49,078 bases of DNA from Bacteroidota bacterium. Its GTDB lineage: Bacteria > Bacteroidota > Ignavibacteria > Ignavibacteriales > Melioribacteraceae. Below, piece after piece: positions 21,164 to 40,500 of the stretch. Each line of letters starts with the position of its first letter. Position 1 is the stretch's first letter. The stretch is from positions 1 to 49,078 of the forward strand of contig JAHISP010000033.1 in NCBI GenBank assembly GCA_018818165.1, in the 5' to 3' direction. The notes beneath the pieces are model-generated. The model saw only the letters and a program-made list of their open reading frames with translations. It made no database searches and was not told the DNA's origin. The position numbers and the translations under genes were made by a program.

Positions 21164-21817
21164 GTGGCTTTAAAGAAAAATCCGAAGGTTGACCTAAAAC
21201 GTAAGTATCAAAGGTATTGGGAAATTAGTTTAATTATCTCTTTAACTATTTTGATTGTTGCGTTTAAGTTCTTCCCTAAATTCGAACAAGAAGTATTAAG
21301 TATAGATGCTCCTCAAGAATTAATTCAGACTGAGGATGTTGAGGCTACTAAACAGGAGACTGCTCCACCGCCTCCACCAAAGCCTCCAATTCCTATTGAA
21401 GCACCAACTGATGATGTTTTGGAAGATGTTGAAATTGAATCTACGGAGCTGGATGTTGATGCAACGGTCTCTGCACCACCACCTCCACCAAAAGTTGAGG
21501 AAGAAGAAGTTGAACCAGTTTTCTTTGTAGCTGTGGAAGAAATGCCATTACCTATTGGCGGAATTGGTGCAATTCAAAGTAAAATTGTATATCCAGAAAT
21601 TGCAAAACGTGCTGGTGTTCAAGGCAGAGTTTATGTTAAAGCTTACGTTGATGAAAACGGAAAAGTTACTAAGGTTGAACTTGTTCATGGAATAGGTGCT
21701 GGTTGTGACGAAGCTGCAATGGAAGCGGTAAACAGCGTTATGTTTAGTCCTGGAAAGCAAAGAGGTAAACCTGTAAAAGTTCAGGTTACTGTTCCAGTAC
21801 TCTTCAAATTACAATAA
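21164..21817 (+). CDS. tonB: TonB energy transducer (first tandem copy)
   Basis: The 217-residue product starts at GTG, with GGAGG about 6 bp upstream. The layout is classic TonB: a short basic cytoplasmic end (MALKKNPKVDLKRKYQR), one membrane anchor (about 21-40), and a periplasmic linker with two proline runs (TAPPPPPKPP and SAPPPPPKVEEEEVEP). A TonB C-terminal domain follows (about 125-217), containing YPEIAKRAGVQGRVYVKAYVDENG and VNSVMFSPGKQRGKPV. It would pass ExbBD-derived energy to TonB-dependent receptors such as the one at 5415-7622. No exbB or exbD is adjacent. It is followed by its own terminator and a paralogue. Confidence 0.9.
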   Translation: MALKKNPKVDLKRKYQRYWEISLIISLTILIVAFKFFPKFEQEVLSIDAPQELIQTEDVEATKQETAPPPPPKPPIPIEAPTDDVLEDVEIESTELDVDATVSAPPPPPKVEEEEVEPVFFVAVEEMPLPIGGIGAIQSKIVYPEIAKRAGVQGRVYVKAYVDENGKVTKVELVHGIGAGCDEAAMEAVNSVMFSPGKQRGKPVKVQVTVPVLFKLQ

Positions 21818-21965: not shown

Positions 21966-22622
21966 ATGGCTTTAAAGAAAAACCCCAAAATTGATATTAA
22001 ACGGAAATACTACAGAGTATTTCAAATAAGTTTAATACTTTCCCTTTCCCTCATGATTTTAGCATTTAAATTTTTTCCAAAAATTGAAAAAGATGCAATT
22101 GCTAGCATCATTCCACAAGTTTTAATTATAGGGGAAGATGTTATCCCAACAAAACTAGATCTAGTAATACCCGAACCTCCAAAACCGCTAATTCCTATTG
22201 AATCTCCAACAGATGATTTATTAGATGATATTGCGATTGAAACATCTATATGGGATGAAAAAGACAATATTGGAATAACGACTCATAAACCTCTAAGTAA
22301 TGATGTAGATGAGGACTTGAATATAATTTTTGTTGCCGTTGAGCAAATGCCGAAACCATTAGGTGGAATTGCAGCAATTCAGAGTAAAATTGTATATCCA
22401 GAAATTGCAAAACGAGCTGGTATTCAAGGCAGAGTGTATGTTAAAGCGTTTGTTGATGAAAATGGGAATGTATTTAATGTTGAATTGCTTAAAGGAATTG
22501 GTGGAGGTTGCGATGAATCGGCTTTAGTGGCTGTTAAAAGCTCAAAGTTTATACCAGGAAAACAACGAGATAAACCTGTTAAGTGTCAAGTAACTATTCC
22601 AATACTATTTAAATTACAATAA
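21966..22622 (+). CDS. TonB paralogue with altered linker (second tandem copy)
   Basis: The 218-residue product is a diverged duplicate of the preceding TonB. The N-terminus (MALKKNPKIDIKRKYYR), the anchor and the C-terminal domain (IQSKIVYPEIAKRAGIQGRV, KFIPGKQRDKPV, ending ILFKLQ) are nearly the same. The linker differs: the proline runs are reduced to PEPPKPLIP, the second run is gone, and acidic segments (DDLLDDIAIE, NDVDEDLN) take their place. A shorter, less rigid linker may reach other receptors or serve another growth condition. It has its own upstream gap (about 150 bp) and terminator. Confidence 0.88.
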   Translation: MALKKNPKIDIKRKYYRVFQISLILSLSLMILAFKFFPKIEKDAIASIIPQVLIIGEDVIPTKLDLVIPEPPKPLIPIESPTDDLLDDIAIETSIWDEKDNIGITTHKPLSNDVDEDLNIIFVAVEQMPKPLGGIAAIQSKIVYPEIAKRAGIQGRVYVKAFVDENGNVFNVELLKGIGGGCDESALVAVKSSKFIPGKQRDKPVKCQVTIPILFKLQ

Positions 22623-28693: not shown

Positions 28694-29899
28694 ATGAAAT
28701 CAAAAACACTTCTTATTCTTCTCATTTTACTTTCAATACCTATATTTTCTCAAAGCGGTTTTGTTTACACTTATTATTCAAGCGGAAAAATTGAGGGAGT
28801 TTTGTTTTACGCAAATGAAGTCCTTGAAGGGAAATGCTATTGGTATCACGAAAATGGAAATCTTAAAGCTGAAAAAGTTTACAGCAATGGCAAGCTAAAC
28901 GGATTTTCAAGGGAATTTGATGATACTGGATTAATGAAAGAAGAAATTTCTATTAAAAATGGTGTTCGTGATGGTCTTTCAAAATATTATTATGATAATG
29001 GAGCACTTAAGTCAATTCTAAGTTATGAAAATGGTGTTTTAATAAAACAAGTACACATTGATTACGATTCGCTTTACGTTGCTCCTTTGGAAGCTTACAA
29101 ATATGCTAACACGCAGGATAGAATTAAAGATAATGAGGATTTGTTCCTTTGCGAAGGGGCTGATATGTGTCCAAAACCAGTTGGTGGGATGAATGAAATT
29201 ATTAAGCATCTTGTTTATCCAGAGCACGCAAAATTATATGGACTTGAAGGATTTGTAACTGTTGTTGTTTCAATTGATACTATTGGGATTGTAAAAAAAA
29301 TAGAAGTACTAAACGATTTAGGATTAGGCACAAAAGAAGCTGCAATTGATGCGGTTAAAGCATCAAGATTTTTACCAGGTGAAAAGGATGGAAAAACAGT
29401 TGCAAGCAAAGTTTTATTTAAAATTCCGTTTATGCTTAGTGGCAAAATACTTTATGCAGCTTCAACTCTTAAAGATGATGGAAAGGCAAAACCTATAAAT
29501 CCCAAGTCTCACGAAAACAAAATCCAAAATGAGAAAGTAAATGAAACTGAAAATTTAGAAGTTGATAAAATTGAAACTAAAGTAGAACCTAAATTATTTG
29601 AATGTGATTTGGATGTTTGCGCAAAACCAAAAGCTGGAATTAAGGATATTTTAGATAATTTAATTATGCCATCAGTAGCTAAGCGAAAGGGAATTGAGGG
29701 TGAAGTTATTGTTGAAGCTACAGTTGATATTTATGGAAATGTTCGTGATACAAAAGTTATAAAACAACTTGGGTATGGTTGTGATGATGCTGTAGAAGTA
29801 GCAATTCTTCAAACAAAATTTGAACCTGGTATTTCTGATGGAAAACCTGTCCGCTCAGTTGTGAAAATTAGAGTTCCAATTGTTCAGGAAAAGGAATGA
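28694..29899 (+). CDS. exported YwqK/MORN-repeat protein with two TonB C-terminal domains
   Basis: The 401-residue product has a cleavable-looking signal peptide ending IFSQ rather than a retained TonB anchor. Residues 22-125 hold antitoxin-YwqK/MORN-like repeats (YYSSGKIEGVLFY, YHENGNLKAEKVYSNGKLNG, YYDNGALKSILSYENG). Two TonB_C domains follow: about 152-246 (MCPKPVGGMNEIIKHLVYPE ... FLPGEKDGKTV) and about 305-396 (VCAKPKAGIKDILDNLIMP ... FEPGISDGKPV). They are separated by a Lys/Glu-rich linker. Without an anchor it cannot transduce energy like TonB, so a periplasmic binding or adaptor role is more likely. Confidence 0.8.
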   Translation: MKSKTLLILLILLSIPIFSQSGFVYTYYSSGKIEGVLFYANEVLEGKCYWYHENGNLKAEKVYSNGKLNGFSREFDDTGLMKEEISIKNGVRDGLSKYYYDNGALKSILSYENGVLIKQVHIDYDSLYVAPLEAYKYANTQDRIKDNEDLFLCEGADMCPKPVGGMNEIIKHLVYPEHAKLYGLEGFVTVVVSIDTIGIVKKIEVLNDLGLGTKEAAIDAVKASRFLPGEKDGKTVASKVLFKIPFMLSGKILYAASTLKDDGKAKPINPKSHENKIQNEKVNETENLEVDKIETKVEPKLFECDLDVCAKPKAGIKDILDNLIMPSVAKRKGIEGEVIVEATVDIYGNVRDTKVIKQLGYGCDDAVEVAILQTKFEPGISDGKPVRSVVKIRVPIVQEKE

Positions 29900-29914: not shown

Positions 29915-30023
29915 GTCATTGCGAGGAGTTTCATCCCGAAGCAATCTGTTACAATCGCGATCTGTTTGAGTAGAATTATTGAAAGATTGCTTCACCAACA
30001 AAAAGACGTTGGTTCGCAATGAC
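29915..30023. repeat. palindromic interspersed repeat, copy A
   Basis: The unit begins GTCATTGCGAGGAG and ends TTCGCAATGAC. Inner arms GAAGCAATCT and AGATTGCTTC also pair, so it folds on itself around an AT-rich loop of about 35 bp. It is closely similar to copy D at 30593-30701, including the loop. The flank ACAAATG before it recurs before the next unit. Confidence 0.85.
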
Positions 30024-30037
30024 ACCGACAAATGAAA

Positions 30038-30447
30038 GTCATTGTGAGGAATTCCATCCCGAAGCAATCCACCTAAGAAGTATAAATAATATTAGATGGT
30101 AACAAATTGCGTAAAAATGGATATATCTACATAATAACTAACAAAAATAATACGGTACTTTATACAGGTGTTACTTCAAATTTAACAAAAAGAATTTACG
30201 AGCATAAAAATCATCTAGTTGATGGTTTTAGTAAAAAATATAACTTAGAGAAATTAGTTTATTATGAAATATTTGAAGATATAAATTTAGCTATTCAAAG
30301 AGAAAAACAGATTAAGGCTGGTTCAAGAAAGAAAAAAGAGGAATTGATAAAATCAATTAATGAAGAATGGAATGATTTAGCTAATGAATTATTTTAGAAA
30401 TTTCAAAGGATGCTTTATCTAACAAAAAGAGTTGGTTTCGTAATGAC
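30038..30447 (+). mobile_element. putative mobile element: GIY-YIG gene bounded by palindrome halves
   Basis: The left end (30038-30070) begins GTCATTGTGAGG and ends GAAGCAATCC. The right end (30408-30447) begins GGATGCTTTATC and ends TTTCGTAATGAC. These are the two halves of the neighbouring 110-bp palindromic repeats, but here they are separated by about 340 bp that hold a GIY-YIG nuclease gene. The halves therefore act as terminal inverted repeats of a 410-bp element. Copies A, C and D are what such an element would leave without its gene. Confidence 0.6.
30107..30397 (+). CDS. single-domain GIY-YIG endonuclease
   Basis: The gene encodes 96 residues, start TTG (no in-frame ATG is available; one at 30096 is out of frame). 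The GIY-YIG core is visible as GYIYI (Tyr6 and Tyr8) and LYTGV (Tyr19-Thr-Gly21, a common YTG variant). The catalytic Arg29 (NLTKRIYEHK) and the metal-binding Glu66 (IQREKQIKAG) follow, so the active site looks complete. Members of this stand-alone family (YhbQ/URI-like) are common and poorly characterised. It lies inside the two arms of a palindromic repeat, which suggests that the nuclease and the repeat form one element. Confidence 0.88.
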   Translation: MRKNGYIYIITNKNNTVLYTGVTSNLTKRIYEHKNHLVDGFSKKYNLEKLVYYEIFEDINLAIQREKQIKAGSRKKKEELIKSINEEWNDLANELF

Positions 30448-30461
30448 GCGCCAATAAGTCA

Positions 30462-30575
30462 GTCATTGCGAGGAGTTCGTCTTTTTGAACGACGCGGCAA
30501 TCTGTCAAAAGAGTAATAGTTAAAAATCACTACAACTTAGGTAGATTGCTTCAGCAAAAAACGCTTCGCAATGAC
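30462..30575. repeat. palindromic interspersed repeat, copy C
   Basis: The unit starts GTCATTGCGAGGAG and ends GCTTCGCAATGAC, with inner arms CGGCAATCT and AGATTGCTTC. The middle of the left arm carries a different insert (TCTTTTTGAACGACG) and the loop differs from copies A and D, so it is a diverged copy. Confidence 0.8.
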
Positions 30576-30592
30576 GGACAAAAAAAGCGCAA

Positions 30593-30701
30593 GTCTTTGC
30601 GAGGAGTTTTATCCCGAAGCAATCTGTTATATTCGCAATCTATTTGATTAGAAAAAATGAAAGATTGCTTCACCAACAAAAAGACGTTGGTTCGCAATGA
30701 C
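30593..30701. repeat. palindromic interspersed repeat, copy D
   Basis: The unit starts GTCTTTGCGAGGAG and ends GTTCGCAATGAC, with GAAGCAATCT and AGATTGCTTC inside. It matches copy A along its whole length, including the right-arm CACCAACAAAAAGACG and most of the loop. It abuts the 3' end of the minus-strand thioredoxin-like gene and may end its transcript. Confidence 0.85.
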
Positions 30702-30719: not shown

Positions 30720-31325
30720 TTATTCCAATCCCAACAACTTTAAAAATTCTATTTCAAGTGTTTTTCCTCTATCTTTTCCGTACCACAAATGAAGTTTTTC
30801 ATTAAACTCATCTTTAGATAAACCGCTTTCTTTCCATTCTTTTACAAGTTGTTTTGCAACTTCAGGTCTTGGTCCCCATTGAAAAAGTTGATTTCCTTCT
30901 TGGTCAAATCCAATTATTTTTGGAATTGCTCTACCACCGTTTGTAAGAAATCTATCAATTATATCAAGATTATCATCACGATAAATCATTTTGAATTCAA
31001 TATTTTGGCTAGATTCAGTCATCTTAAATAGAAATGGAATATTCTGTGCAGAATCACCACACCAATCTTCGGTGATTATTAACCAAGTTTGCTTTTCGGT
31101 AATTTTGCTTATTGCATTTTTAACTTCGTCACTTGGTTTATAGGTTTTTAAAATTCTGTTAGTTCGTCTTTGATTTAATTTTGTGTATTCGTGCAATTTT
31201 CTATCTAATTCATTCTCAATTGGTTTTTCGGGATCTACTGCGTTTAAATCTGATTGTTTATTGAATTGCTTAAATGAAATACCAATCTCATTTATGTATT
31301 TAAGAAATTCACTTTTTTTGTTCAT
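30720..31325 (-). CDS. thioredoxin-family protein with WCGDS active site
   Basis: The 201-residue cytoplasmic protein (no signal peptide) has a helical N-terminal extension and then a thioredoxin-like fold: WLIITEDWCGDSAQNIPFL (about 81-99) and the cis-Pro region GGRAIPKIIGF. The active site is Cys89-Gly-Asp-Ser92, so only one Cys of the usual pair is present. This is standard for the Thioredoxin_9-type family common in Bacteroidota and Bacillota. Single-Cys members cannot act as ordinary disulfide reductases and may use mixed disulfides or bacillithiol-like thiols. It diverges from the dnaE-like gene, whose start is 89 bp away. Confidence 0.85.
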   Translation of the reverse strand: MNKKSEFLKYINEIGISFKQFNKQSDLNAVDPEKPIENELDRKLHEYTKLNQRRTNRILKTYKPSDEVKNAISKITEKQTWLIITEDWCGDSAQNIPFLFKMTESSQNIEFKMIYRDDNLDIIDRFLTNGGRAIPKIIGFDQEGNQLFQWGPRPEVAKQLVKEWKESGLSKDEFNEKLHLWYGKDRGKTLEIEFLKLLGLE

Positions 31326-31413: not shown

Positions 31414-33024
31414 ATGTTTACACTTCATGCACATTCAACGTTTTCATTGCTAACTGGAACAATTCCTTACGAGCGGATTATTAAGCTTGCCAAAGAAAAT
31501 GGTTCAAAATACGCTGTTTTGACTGATACAAATAGAATGAATGGGTTAATCCAATTTGCAAAACTTGCTGAGGAAGAGGGAATTAAGTCAATTCTTGGAA
31601 CAGAACTTACTGACCCGCACGATGAATCTTTGTCACTTATTTTGCTTGCAAAAAACGATAAAGGCTATTCGAAACTTTGCAAAATAATAACTACTCGCAA
31701 TTTAAAAGAGAGTTTTACTCTTGCTGGATTATTGCATGAAGATTTATCCGATTTATTTATTATTTGCTCATCAATCGAATTAATAAAATCAAGTTTGGAA
31801 AGAATTGCTGAACTTCCAAATTTTTATACCGAACTAATTGTAACCGAAAATTGGAAACTTAAAACACGAAAATTGTATGAATTATCCCAAAAGCATAAAA
31901 TTAAATTTGTTGCCTCACATCCACTTTATTTTGAAAAACAAGATGATTTTATACTTCACAAAACGGTTTCGGCAATTAGACTAAATAGCACGATTGAAAA
32001 TATTGATAAAAACAAATTGGTGGATGAAGAGTTTTATTTCAAATCGCCAGCAGAATTAAAAGAAACTTGGAAGAAACTTCCAGAAGCATTGCAAAATGTT
32101 GAATTTATAGCTGATAATTGCAGTGTTAATCTAAAATTTGGTGTTTATAAATATCCAAAATTCGATTTACCCGAAGGCGAAACTTCTTATTCAATGTTGT
32201 GGAAATTAGCTTTTGAAGGACTAAAGGAAAAGTACAACCCAATACCAGATGTTGCTATAAAGCGACTTAATAAAGAAATGGAGGTTATAAATAAAGCCAA
32301 TTTTAATGACTATTTTCTAATTGTTTGGGATATTCTTCAAGAAGCTAAACGGCGAGAAATAATTCACGTTGGGCGCGGTTCTGCTGGTGGAAGTCTGGTT
32401 TCGTATTGTTTGGGCATTTCACAAGCTGACCCAATAAAATACAATTTATATTTTGAACGATTTCTAAATGATGCTCGCAAAGACCCGCCTGATATTGATT
32501 TGGACTTTTCTTGGAAGGAACGCGATGAAATTATTAAATATGTTTTTGATAAATATGGCTATTCGCATGTTGCAATGATTTCTACAACTGTTACATTCCG
32601 CGCACGTTCTGCTTTTAGAGAAACCGCTAAAGCTTTTGGAATTTCTGAACATGAAATCTCAAAATATAGCGAGTTCATACCATGGAGTAGCGCAAAAAAT
32701 CTTGGAAACTTAGCGGAGAAATTCCCAGAATCAAAATCGTTGGATTTTTCTGATGAACCTTGGAAATCTATTGTGGAAATTGCGTCAAAACTTGCTGGCT
32801 TTCCGCGACATATTAGCATTCATCCAAGTGGAATTTTAATAACTCCAAAACCAATTACAAACTACGTTGCCCTTGAATACGCAAAAAACAAAGGACTTGG
32901 ATTGATAATTACACAACCCGATATGTATCCCATTGAATACATGGGTTTAATAAAAATAGATTTATTAAGCCAGCGTGCATTAGGTGTTTTGAGAGATACA
33001 ATTGATGCAATTGCGGAAGAATAA
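31414..33024 (+). CDS. DNA polymerase III alpha-like (DnaE/DnaE2 type), truncated after the palm
   Basis: The product has 536 residues, about half the usual 1000-1200. A PHP domain opens it (LHAHSTFSLLTG with the HxH metal pair at 5 and 7). The palm follows with GRGSAGGSLVSY (320-331), PPDIDLDF carrying catalytic Asp362 and Asp364, FPRHISIHPSGI, and MGLIKIDLLSQRAL carrying the third Asp516. The protein stops at 536, about 20 residues later, so fingers, beta-clamp-binding and OB domains are missing. Nothing resembling them is found downstream, and a REP-like palindrome sits 8 bp after the stop. The reading frame itself is clean. It is probably a deletion remnant of an error-prone DnaE2-like polymerase, unless the short form is functional. 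Confidence 0.75.
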   Translation: MFTLHAHSTFSLLTGTIPYERIIKLAKENGSKYAVLTDTNRMNGLIQFAKLAEEEGIKSILGTELTDPHDESLSLILLAKNDKGYSKLCKIITTRNLKESFTLAGLLHEDLSDLFIICSSIELIKSSLERIAELPNFYTELIVTENWKLKTRKLYELSQKHKIKFVASHPLYFEKQDDFILHKTVSAIRLNSTIENIDKNKLVDEEFYFKSPAELKETWKKLPEALQNVEFIADNCSVNLKFGVYKYPKFDLPEGETSYSMLWKLAFEGLKEKYNPIPDVAIKRLNKEMEVINKANFNDYFLIVWDILQEAKRREIIHVGRGSAGGSLVSYCLGISQADPIKYNLYFERFLNDARKDPPDIDLDFSWKERDEIIKYVFDKYGYSHVAMISTTVTFRARSAFRETAKAFGISEHEISKYSEFIPWSSAKNLGNLAEKFPESKSLDFSDEPWKSIVEIASKLAGFPRHISIHPSGILITPKPITNYVALEYAKNKGLGLIITQPDMYPIEYMGLIKIDLLSQRALGVLRDTIDAIAEE

Positions 33025-37547: not shown

Positions 37548-40500
37548 ATGAAAAATATTACATTATTTTTTATTCTACTATTATCTTCGGTAATGATAGC
37601 ACAAACTTATTCCTCCAATGGAATAATTAACCCAATACTAAGCGATAGTTCCGATTTACCAACAGGAATTTGGAGTGCAGGTAGCACTGGTGGGCCAGTA
37701 ACATTTGGAACTAATTTTGAAAACAATATCTACTTTACGCAAGGAACATATTTTTATAAAGCAGAAGAAGGTACAAAAAACATTGAAATTCTGGAGCAGA
37801 ATTTTTTGCCAAATACTGCAAAATCATTTAAGATTAACGGTGACAACCTCTATATGATTTTTGATGAGAATTCCTCTTACAAAAACAAAATATCTAAATC
37901 AACAATGTCAAATTTATCATCATCTTCGGCCACTGAATATGGTGAAATCACAAACGGTATAAACAAATTTGAAGAGGTTAACGGATACGTTTATCTGGCT
38001 CACAATAAAAATGGTATTTTAAGCGATAAAATTGTTGGGAAAGACTTTCTAAATAATATTGAAGCGTCATCTCTTTATACAAAAGATTTTCGTGATTTTG
38101 TTGCAAACGAAAATTACATATATTTAATTGCAGATAATGGAACAACCACTCGCACAATTGAAATAGTAGATTTTTCAAACAAATCAAATGTAACAAAAGT
38201 GGGTTCTATTGTTGTTGCTTCGGCTGTTTCGCTAGATTATTCTGATGGATATTTATATGTAGCATGTGACGATAACCAAGGCTTTCAAGTTATTGATGTG
38301 AGTAATCCAACAAATCCAACAAATGTGGGAAATTATAATGGGGGAAATGAATCGTATTTGAAACTGGTAGTAGAGGGCACAAAGGCATATTTAGTTGGGT
38401 ATGTTACTTTAGTGGTTCTTGATATTTCTAATCCAGCGGTACCAAAATATTTGAACTACAAATGGTTATCTGATTTAGGGATTGGCGCAACTGTTCAATT
38501 AACGGATGTAGCAAATGGCAAAATATATTATGTTGATAACGGTCACTTTGGAATTATTGAAACCGATGGTGGAATTAGCCTTGGGCAAAAATATTTATCG
38601 CCAACGACTGTTGAAAAAGTAGTATCCGATGGAAATAATCTTGTAATTTATGATAATTCCAACTTTTATTTTGGCTCATTGGTGGATAATAAATTATCGC
38701 CAGATATTTATGATGAACTTTCTCCATCCATTTTTCCTGAAGATTTTACAATTGATGGTGACTATTTTTACTTATCAGACTACAACAATCTCTATATCCA
38801 TCAAGTTTCCAACTTGTCCAGTACTCCAATTTCCACTTATCCATATTCCGGACAGTACGAAGCATTTAAAGTGGATGGTAATCTTGCAGTAGTTGGTGGA
38901 TTTGTACCAAGTTTTGAAAACTACTTCGAAATTATAGACCTAACTGATAGGTCAAATCCTACAAAAGTTTTTTCTGGTACAAATTTAACTAATGGAACAA
39001 TTAATTCAATTGAGTTTTCCAGCGATAAAAACATACTTTATTTAACAAGCGAGGGGGGTGGAAAAGTTTGGTTTACGATATATGATATAACTGATAAATC
39101 GACACCTTCAAAAATATCAGAAACCCAAATAGAAGTTGGTGCAAATACAAAAATGGGATTAAGTGATTCTACAGTAATATTTTCTATCAACAAATCGAAT
39201 ATCAGTTATGAAACACATTTAATTGCTTATAACATTTCAAATCCCATAAACCCACAGTTGTTGGATGATATTCTTGTTTCATTTAATGAATATAACGATA
39301 TGTTGTTTTTAGAAGATCTAGTTCTCATAAATGTACCTCATGATCAAAAATTATATACTTATACATTTGTAAACAGTACCGGAGTTTTCGTTGCCGGGGA
39401 AGTTCTGGATATAGGTTCAGAACTTGAAAATATGTCTGGTTTTATTGATCACACAGTTCCAGCTAAAACCTTCAAAAAAGCAAATAATCTATTGGGTGAC
39501 GAATATGACTACGGCTATGTTTATGCTTCCGAGAAGAGTGAAGGATATGAAATAATATATTTTGAAAAAAAGAAAAAAGTTGTTACAAATGTAACTTTGC
39601 TAACTAGTGTTAAACCCTCCGAAGCAGCAGATGATGGGTGCAAAGTTTCACCTACAGGTGGTGTGTATAAGAAAGGCACAAATATACAAATGTCAGCAAC
39701 TGCTGTCGAAGGATGGGCTTGGTCTCATTGGTCGGGCGATCTAAGTGGTTCAGCTAACCCATCTAATCTAAAAATGGATGGAAATAAATCAGTAACTGGA
39801 AATTTTAAACCAATATTAGAATTGAGTTTTGGTTCTGATTTTGCAAGAATGATTGGACCACCAAAGAATGATGAAAAAATGTATATCGGGAAGGCATCAT
39901 TAACTGCTTATGGAGTTGATTGGGAACTAAAGCATCTTGATTTTTTAGTAACCACAAAAGTGAAAGCAGAATATGCTGGAGCATTTATAGTGTACGATGG
40001 GAAAACTGTACAAGGTACAATCCATAAAGATGATAATGGATATATGACAGGATTAAACTTTGTTACACCTAAAATAATACCTGAGCTTACCACATTAACT
40101 TTGGAGCTCTACTTCATGTTCGATTTTCCACCGAACGAAAAAGGTTCTCTTGCCCCGCTTGATGAAATAAAAAGAATAGGTGTTTCTATTCATAGAACCC
40201 AAGTATTTTGCGATCCCATAAACGGGATTGAAGGAATTAAAGAACCGCAAGAGACTTTTAATTCAAAAATTCATACCATTGGTTGGATTTGGAATTGGTC
40301 ACTATCACCAGCTGTTCCATTTGAAACGATACAAAAAGCTAATGATGATCCAAAAACACTTGATGGGCATGAAATAACTATTTATGAAGGATATTATAAA
40401 TATGACTATATAACAAATATCACAAAATCGTTAAGTATAAAACCTCATGGAATAGGTGGTGATATTTATATTGAAGGCAATGATGATGCAACCTTTAATA

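Follow-up and report, generated by a model that had tools for sequence, protein, structure and literature searches.

The question raised by this locus was whether a small nuclease gene enclosed by palindromic repeats formed a mobile element of its own. The window, which is the whole stretch of 49,078 nucleotides that was analysed, had been described in a first-pass annotation as carrying palindromes of ~110 bp near a GIY-YIG nuclease gene and a split copy of such a palindrome at 30038-30447. According to that description, the same two arms were pulled apart in the gene unit and behaved as terminal inverted repeats, with a complete, motif-intact gene in the middle. The layout had been likened to REP/RAYT pairs having a nuclease of a different fold, and it had been suggested that the enzyme cut or spread its own palindrome and that the gene-free copies were passive derivatives.

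The palindromes and the split copy were confirmed in the sequence. The intergenic tract 29915-30701 consisted of four tandem units, namely three REP dimers and one REP-gene-REP unit, which were arranged in the order of a dimer, the gene unit and two further dimers and were separated by gaps of 14, 14 and 17 nt (Table 1). The description of the arms was refined: each arm of a dimer was a whole REP hairpin, GTC-ATTGC...GCAAT-C, and the 110-bp palindromes were REP dimers. The reading of the arms as terminal inverted repeats held in part, since two complete CGTC-type REPs described them better. That the same arms were pulled apart around the gene also held, but both were worn (upstream GTCATTGTGA, downstream GTCATTACGA...GCATCC), and therefore neither passed the strict detector described below.

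Table 1. Features of the intergenic tract and its neighbours (positions in the window)
Feature	Position	Strand	Details
Left neighbour, TonB_C protein with MORN_2 repeats	28694-29899	+	also borders the empty site in congener G001
Gene-free REP dimer	29915-30023		REPs 29915-29946 (+) and 29985-30023 (-); fold -38.5 kcal/mol (ViennaRNA)
Upstream REP of the gene unit	30038-30069	+	GTCATTGTGAGGAATTCCATCCCGAAGCAATC; worn, GTG for GCG; repeat family D3
GIY-YIG nuclease gene	30107-30397	+	96 aa, TTG start; residues 71-73 are A-G-S (KAGSRKKK)
Downstream REP of the gene unit	30408-30447	-	GTC end outward; degenerate GTCATTACGAAACC...GATAAAGCATCC
Gene-free REP dimer	30462-30575		REPs 30462-30502 (+) and 30544-30575 (-)
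Gene-free REP dimer	30593-30701		left REP begins GTCTTTGCG; right REP 30663-30701 (-)
Right neighbour, thioredoxin-like protein	30720-31325	-	also borders the empty site in congener G001

The hairpins were searched with a strict detector of the pattern GTC-ATabc-N{2,40}-c'b'a'AT-C. Six matches were obtained in the 49 kb of the window, five of them within 29915-30701, and the sixth, 17 nt long at 40390, was chance-like. In the genome to which the window belongs, the exact 9-mer GTCATTGCG occurred 73 times against 15 times for the reversed control, and 61 strict GTCATTGCGA...GCAATC REPs were counted against 0 for the reversed control. A second, internally deleted copy of the element was found in this genome at C19:40144-40308, where 88 nt of the gene 3' end were left (84% identity), flanked by one intact and one worn REP. 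Two other features of the window were recorded. At 21164-21817 and 21966-22622 there were two tandem genes with repeated DNA (repeat families D1, D5 and D9), each followed, by eye, by a terminator-like hairpin. A frame of 536 aa at 31414-33024 carried PHP and DNA polymerase III alpha NTPase domains and was possibly a split or truncated dnaE.

The REPs of the CGTC superfamily have a CGTC or TGTC tag, a stem of 8-9 bp starting with AT, loops of 4-5 nt and a short tail, and they lie mostly in inverted dimers (PMC3733652). They include dRS3 of Neisseria and RPE-4 and RPE-6 of Rickettsia, and Neisseria, A. lipoferum and S. meliloti were named among their carriers (PMC3733652). The window hairpins probably belong to this superfamily, as they shared the tag, the AT stem start, the short tail and the inverted dimers. 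The GTC head and the AT start were imposed by the detector; the base preceding GTC was C or T in the examples from relatives, and in the window it was A in the plus-strand REPs and T or C in the minus-strand ones. High copy number and inverted dimers, also published traits, were met by the 61 strict copies of the genome and the three dimers of the window. The stems were 8-9 bp long in the ATTCCCGC and ATGCTGAA types, whereas the ATTGCGA types differed from the published REPs in a strict stem of 5 bp and longer loops. A further difference concerned the enzyme. The CGTC-type REPs were stated to "apparently lack a dedicated transposase" (Di Nocera, De Gregorio and Rocco 2013, PMC3733652), whereas a candidate was found here, and one strain each of Neisseria, A. 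lipoferum and S. meliloti had a GIY-YIG gene beside such REPs.

The claim that the gene was complete and motif-intact held as well. The open reading frame was intact, with a translation lacking Met, and it matched PF01541 at E 7e-17 and T5orf172 weakly; PF01797 was not matched in the Pfam search. In the subfamily alignment A2, Y8, Y19, G21 and E66 were invariant and R29 was present in at least 90% of the rows; the superfamily criteria (the GIY/YIG tyrosines, the arginine, the glutamate and the fold) were satisfied. The AlphaFold model had a mean pLDDT of 91.5, and residues 71-73 formed in it the turn joining helix 59-71 and helix 74-84. The closest solved fold found by Foldseek was UPF0213 (1zg2, E 4e-4), and Slx1 (E 0.02 and up) and the UvrC GIY-YIG domains were weaker matches. 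Slx1 is known to cut branched DNA, in keeping with a hairpin or cruciform substrate. The fold and the catalytic motif were shared with the small prokaryotic GIY-YIG proteins (UPF0213 1zg2/1ywl and, as a putative assignment, the Slx1-like non-eukaryotic cluster of PMC1564403). In contrast, palindromic repeats go unmentioned in the parts of PMC1564403 that bear on those proteins, where the roles discussed concern repair, restriction and RNA. Of ten gene pairs compared, five gave dN/dS values of 0.03-0.14, one gave 0.69 (L060/L065, L060 carrying an internal TGA), two had saturated dS and two were identical. It was concluded that the gene was maintained by purifying selection in some pairs.

Relatives of the gene were gathered with the subfamily alignments A1 and then A2 (32 rows). 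The family sample had a match in 57 of 79 genomes at E 1e-10, the phylum sample in at least 89 of 198 genomes at E 1e-20, and the named-genome sample comprised the best 80 of 577 candidate loci; further regions were chosen by hand, partly for being from multi-copy genomes. In total, 251 distinct genes were obtained, 205 of which scored at least 90 bits with A2 and 45 scored 20-90 bits; one weaker match was set aside. The 205 genes comprised orthologues and paralogues and were hence not independent. A gene was considered associated when a strict-detector REP lay within 300 nt of it.

Such a REP was found at 169 of the 205 subfamily genes and on both sides at 126, compared with 3.4 and 0 per 205 in flanks resampled by a first-order Markov process. 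Among the 45 GIY-YIG genes that scored 20-90 bits, almost all of which came from the family of the window, 6 had a REP on any side and 0 on both, and two of these six (L021 and L027) were fragments of the subfamily itself. The REP density fell from 6.5/kb at 0-100 nt to 0.3/kb at 800-1500 nt from the gene. By source, the 205 genes comprised 61 from the family (53 with a REP on any side, 40 on both), 80 from the named genomes (71 and 53) and 64 from the phylum (45 and 33). With A1 scores, the family set gave 51/61 on any side and 43/61 on both at 95 bits or more, 2/15 and 0/15 at 60-95 bits, and 4/29 and 0/29 below 60 bits; the 83 genes in the 80 named loci gave 73/83 and 55/83. The REP-bearing loci came, by our own count from record titles, from at least 15 phylum-level groups, which included Cyanobacteria, Omnitrophota, Planctomycetes, Elusimicrobia, Chloroflexi, Firmicutes, the candidate phyla radiation, WOR-3 and Proteobacteria. 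The pairing of gene and REP was therefore general across phyla.

The REP types varied strongly among genomes (ATTGCGA, ATTCCCGC, ATTTCGA, ATTCTGA, ATGCTGAA and others), so the pairing was not that of one inherited sequence. The nearest REPs pointed tag-outward on both sides in 76/205 genes, and other orientations were seen in the remaining two-sided loci; mixed orientations are expected where dimers and clusters adjoin the gene. A strict REP was absent at 36/205 subfamily genes, and the detector was blind to variants ending in ACC or starting with GTCAC. An alignment of both flanks as inverted repeats was tried as well, in which 17/60 high-scoring genes reached a score of 32 against 2/57 outer-window controls. 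It was replaced by the hairpin detector, since the alignment underestimated the association when the two REPs of one unit differed, as they often did. Up to 10 copies of the subfamily gene were present per genome. At L074 (G009), L080 (G022), L161, L188 and L195, two or three subfamily genes lay in one locus with REPs between or around them, resembling tandem units. In the Azospirillum lipoferum 4B plasmid AZO_p3 (L290), a GIY-YIG gene with REPs separated sufB from sufC in an iron-sulfur operon.

These counts bear on several points of the first-pass annotation. The genes were bounded by the arms above expectation, and the gene-free copies and the REP/RAYT-like layout with a different nuclease fold held beyond this locus, the latter supported by 169/205 genes and by the covariation of protein and REP given below. 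Homologues without arms, which had been named as evidence against the idea, exist as a minority. One alternative was a coincidence, with tolerant intergenic regions collecting REPs and small nuclease genes alike. REPs are indeed intergenic by nature, but the explanation was contradicted by the shuffle, distance and other-GIY-YIG controls as well as by the covariation in specificity, and it was all but ruled out.

Further, the protein columns of a MAFFT alignment, in window numbering, were compared with stem bases n4-n7 of the REP (GTC-A-T-n3-n4-n5-n6-n7) in 169 genes for which a REP had been labelled; where an upstream REP existed, it was the one used. Mutual information with n4 above shuffles peaked at column 72 (0.79 bits, z 46). 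Columns 71, 73 and 76 came next with 0.62, 0.60 and 0.32 bits, and no other column exceeded 0.24. These four columns lie directly behind Glu66. Gly72 occurred with G or A at n4 in 61/63 cases, and a Trp, Lys or Leu at this position was paired with C or T in 97/98; Tyr was split 3 and 3, and Ser occurred with G in 2/2. The triplets AGS, GGS or AGN were accompanied by GCGA in 50/55 cases, NWH by CTGA or CCGA in 16/16, KWN by CCCG in 9/14, and GWL and GKK by CTGA in 13/13. The window conformed to the rule, having AGS with GTCATTG.

The influence of common descent was reduced with 81 disjoint near pairs selected on columns outside 66-80. The n4 base changed in 15/20 pairs when residue 72 changed and in 10/61 when it did not (Fisher p 2.8e-6). 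Column 71 gave p 9e-6 and column 39, which lies outside the segment, p 1e-5; because column 39 scored like column 71, the near-pair test alone could not single out the segment 71-76. On a tree that excluded columns 66-80, an association of Gly72 with a purine at n4 was supported by the Pagel test (LR 83.4, p 3e-17), and Gly72 or not-Gly agreed with purine or pyrimidine n4 at 161/169 tips. It was concluded that residues 71-73 and 76 covaried with the REP stem; a direct contact between them was inferred.

The rule was fixed before a scan of viral contigs; the loci of a plasmid collection had already been seen but were outside the fit. Seven plasmid-collection loci were taken of 32 records with a match, and all five with a strict REP obeyed the rule: N. 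gonorrhoeae (dRS3-type REPs), Rhizobium CIAT894, A. lipoferum, S. meliloti and A. caviae. The records NZ_CP119140.1, NZ_CP119142.1 and NZ_AP026896.1 (Neisseria and Aeromonas; 2.2-4.9 Mb) look like chromosomes filed as plasmids. The viral contigs contained 26 genes of at least 90 bits, some near-identical, 14 of which had a strict REP (9 on both sides); the rule, read from rows, was obeyed in 11/14 and broken by L366, L378 and L384. Altogether the rule held in 16/19 held-out cases. Nine of the 12 viral-contig genes without a strict REP had an inverted REP-like pair of variant form scoring at least 42, with no control run there, and no such pair was found at L374, L376 (with just 36 nt of upstream flank) and L391. 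The corresponding scores of two plasmid-collection loci, Sphingobium L292 and R. tumorigenes L294, were 64 and 15; the reference was the 99th percentile of mismatched flanks in a separate earlier set, equal to 37.

At the level of the 79 genomes, the presence of a Gly72 gene went with a higher number of GTCATTGCGA REPs (median 10 in the 10 genomes with such a gene and 0 in the remaining 69; p 0.001), and the presence of a KW..W gene with a higher number of GTCATTCCCGC REPs (median 4 in 10 genomes and 0 in the rest; p 1.8e-5). When the pairings were swapped, p was 0.13 and 0.07. Kinship among the genomes was not corrected for. One Gly72-type gene (L037 of G078) had been dropped as a duplicate of L124 with an identical centre; its genome, with 81 GTCATTGCGA REPs, was therefore missing from the Gly72 group, which made the Gly72 test conservative. 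The genomes G072, G074, G075 and G034, with a completeness of 97, 96, 77 and 93%, carried 142, 107, 79 and 36 GTCATTGCGA REPs, respectively, and no subfamily gene of at least 90 bits was found in them. Hence, either the gene was lacking from these assemblies, or REPs are able to outlast it or to escape from it.

Signs of movement were sought at the ends of the units and at orthologous sites. The paralogues L048 and L067, located on different contigs of one genome, were 82% alike, the likeness starting at the upstream REP (~10 nt outside GTC) and breaking off precisely where the downstream REP has its outer end. Among pairs of at least 75% identity whose likeness ended near the gene, homology ended within 6 nt of the REP outer end in 8/26 of the 5' ends and 13/40 of the 3' ends, when 1.0 and 1.7 were expected. 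Such a match of boundaries supports joint movement and does not prove it, because REPs of the same type are alike in any case.

At the orthologous site of the congener G001, the TonB and thioredoxin genes were ~180 nt apart compared with 820 nt in the window, and neither a strict REP nor a GIY-YIG gene was present. In G018, the REP-gene-REP unit seen in G024, G026 and G029 was missing from a gene pair (ABC-transporter-like by eye) whose orthology was judged from DNA likeness. In matching stretches of G093 and G088, the REPs of G093 were absent at three intergenic sites, a different REP was found at two, and others were shared. Within ~400 kb of G093, chosen for holding REPs, 37 of the 89 detected REPs were the identical 24-mer GTCATTCCCGCGAAGGCGGGAATC, which was also located on both sides of the G093 gene at C6. 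Thus, the position of the arms varied between relatives, and fixed arms would have counted against the first-pass annotation. The target duplication or exact junction could not be read at the G001, G018 and G093/G088 sites, as the intergenic flanks were too diverged. Orthologous units could also persist long in place, as at L062, L069 and L071 with 81-96% identity. Empty orthologous sites therefore exist; excision and insertion were inferred, and neither cutting nor transposition was observed. The suggestion that the enzyme cuts or spreads its own palindrome remained the unproven part of the annotation, cutting and spreading both being inferred.

It could also be argued that the enzyme has a host function, in which it resolves REP cruciforms or controls its own transcript by binding the REPs at its flanks, these REPs being operator or terminator elements rather than transposon ends. 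The Slx1-like fold among the weaker matches, the purifying selection in 5/10 pairs and the long-stable orthologous units speak for it. However, it was made very unlikely by the patchy presence in 57/79 family genomes (E 1e-10), the multi-copy state with up to 10 genes per genome, the homology often ending at the REP outer ends, and the decayed and deleted copies.

A further alternative was that the CGTC REPs are moved by the RAYT (Y1/HUH) transposases of the same genomes, the GIY-YIG gene being a passenger. Y1_Tnp matches were present in 70/79 family genomes, and RAYTs are linked to GTAG REPs (PMC3116915). Against this, when the 30 best-scoring Y1 loci were sampled, a strict CGTC REP was present at only 2 (0.067/kb), of which L306 neighbours the GIY-YIG element L048. 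No tyrosine transposase gene flanked by CGTC REPs was found by Di Nocera et al. (PMC3733652), and a code linking residues to REPs would not be expected of a passenger. This explanation was considered very improbable.

The strongest rival was a homing parasite. It assumes that the REPs are spread by another agent, that the GIY-YIG enzyme cuts gene-free REP dimers, and that repair copies the gene between the REPs, like a free-standing homing endonuclease. GIY-YIG enzymes are classic homing nucleases (PMC1564403), the gene lies between two REPs at the position of the dimer spacer, and the covariation and the genome-level correlation are explained equally well. However, the inner spacer of the window unit was, by eye, unlike the spacers of the dimers, and the nearest two REPs differed over the first five stem bases in 50/126 two-sided loci. 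The genome contained 61 strict REPs against one gene and one remnant. The rival also leaves the spreader of the REPs unexplained; no other candidate was found, and the sampled Y1 transposase loci were without these REPs apart from the two cases above. A setting of intron, intein or conserved target gene allele was not met either, the gene being intergenic and between REPs, and the NCBIfam group I intron endonuclease model gave 19.5 bits, far under its cut-off of 56.05. We regarded the homing parasite as unlikely.

The reading that we prefer is that the unit is a minimal mobile element of the REPtron type with a GIY-YIG enzyme instead of a RAYT. This was judged likely, with a probability of about 0.7, cutting and movement being inferred. 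In this model, a single gene between two outward-facing CGTC-type REP hairpins would encode a REP-specific GIY-YIG endonuclease. The enzyme would recognise the stem of its own REP type via residues 71-73 and 76, behind the presumed catalytic Glu66, a contact that is inferred. It may then nick or cut the REP, in its hairpin or cruciform state, close to the unpaired GTC tag, as inferred from the UPF0213-, Slx1- and UvrC-like fold, and host repair or replication would copy the unit into new intergenic sites. The REP-gene-REP unit would be the autonomous form, and REP dimers and single REPs its gene-free derivatives, as inferred from the boundaries, the copy numbers and the empty sites. The window copy would be an ageing one, with worn REPs and an intact gene.

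Like REPtrons (REP with RAYT/TnpA-REP) and REPINs (PMC3116915), the proposed element has an enzyme gene near inverted REPs, gene-free REP doublets and an enzyme type matched to the REP type. It differs from them in having a GIY-YIG nuclease instead of an HUH tyrosine transposase and a CGTC instead of a GTAG tag. The REPtron criterion of an enzyme gene flanked by inverted REPs was met (126/205 on both sides; 76/205 tag-outward), and that of a Y1/HUH tyrosine transposase was not (no PF01797 match; 28/30 sampled Y1 loci without such a REP). The element was therefore classed as a different kind with an analogous plan, because its inferred working was REPtron-like but the defining enzyme test failed. 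Free-standing homing endonucleases and the GIY-YIG domain of Penelope are known as selfish uses of this nuclease, and PMC1564403 covers them in part. The selfish use is shared with the proposed element, whereas here the flanking repeats were REP hairpins, and neither an intron or intein nor a conserved target gene or a reverse transcriptase was seen.

Other groups of GIY-YIG genes were also observed. L024 (G002), L028 (G003) and L030 (contig C85 of the genome of the window) belonged to another subfamily and appeared, by eye, to be embedded in other reading frames and bounded by short terminal inverted repeats of the form CCCGTNAGATA...TATCTNACGGG; they might represent a second, unrelated GIY-YIG mobile gene. 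In L029, L111, L105 and L123, as well as in the partly masked L025, GIY-YIG genes were located close behind or beside a tRNA gene, which ARAGORN identified as tRNA-Gly in L029, tRNA-Asn in L105 and L111 and tRNA-Met in L123. At L105 and L111, ~15-20 nt of the tRNA tail were repeated beyond the gene, as if it inserted at tRNA ends. A sister GIY-YIG group (L096, L098, L099 and L102; ..KQIKxWSRAKKEALIKGDF..) had a different, fully palindromic repeat GTCATCCTGAGC...GTCGAAGGATGAC adjoining the gene, and it is conceivable that the pairing of REP and GIY-YIG gene reaches past the tested subfamily to this group.

A bolder reading of the REPtron-type element was also proposed. In it, the entire CGTC REP superfamily of bacteria, including Neisseria dRS3 and the alphaproteobacterial REPs, would be mobilised by dedicated enzymes of the small GIY-YIG subfamily studied here, which would make up an autonomous REP-GIY-REP class with a readable code at residues 71-76 that evolved separately from the RAYT REPtrons. 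We lean towards this broader view, with less confidence than towards the main reading. No paper linking GIY-YIG genes to REPs was found in the open-access literature searched; subscription papers and preprints were largely outside the search, so that absence is unproven.

With the GIY-YIG enzyme, the partner long missing from one of the two major REP classes of bacteria has probably been identified. A candidate enzyme has thus been named for REPs described in 2013 as apparently without a dedicated transposase, a small set of residues tracks the REP sequence, and the question can be tested with one 96-aa protein and short oligonucleotides. If the proposal is true, a second, unrelated enzyme fold would be added to REP biology, many proteins whose annotation stops at GIY-YIG nuclease family would gain a role, and a compact nuclease that reads hairpins by an apparent natural specificity code would be at hand.
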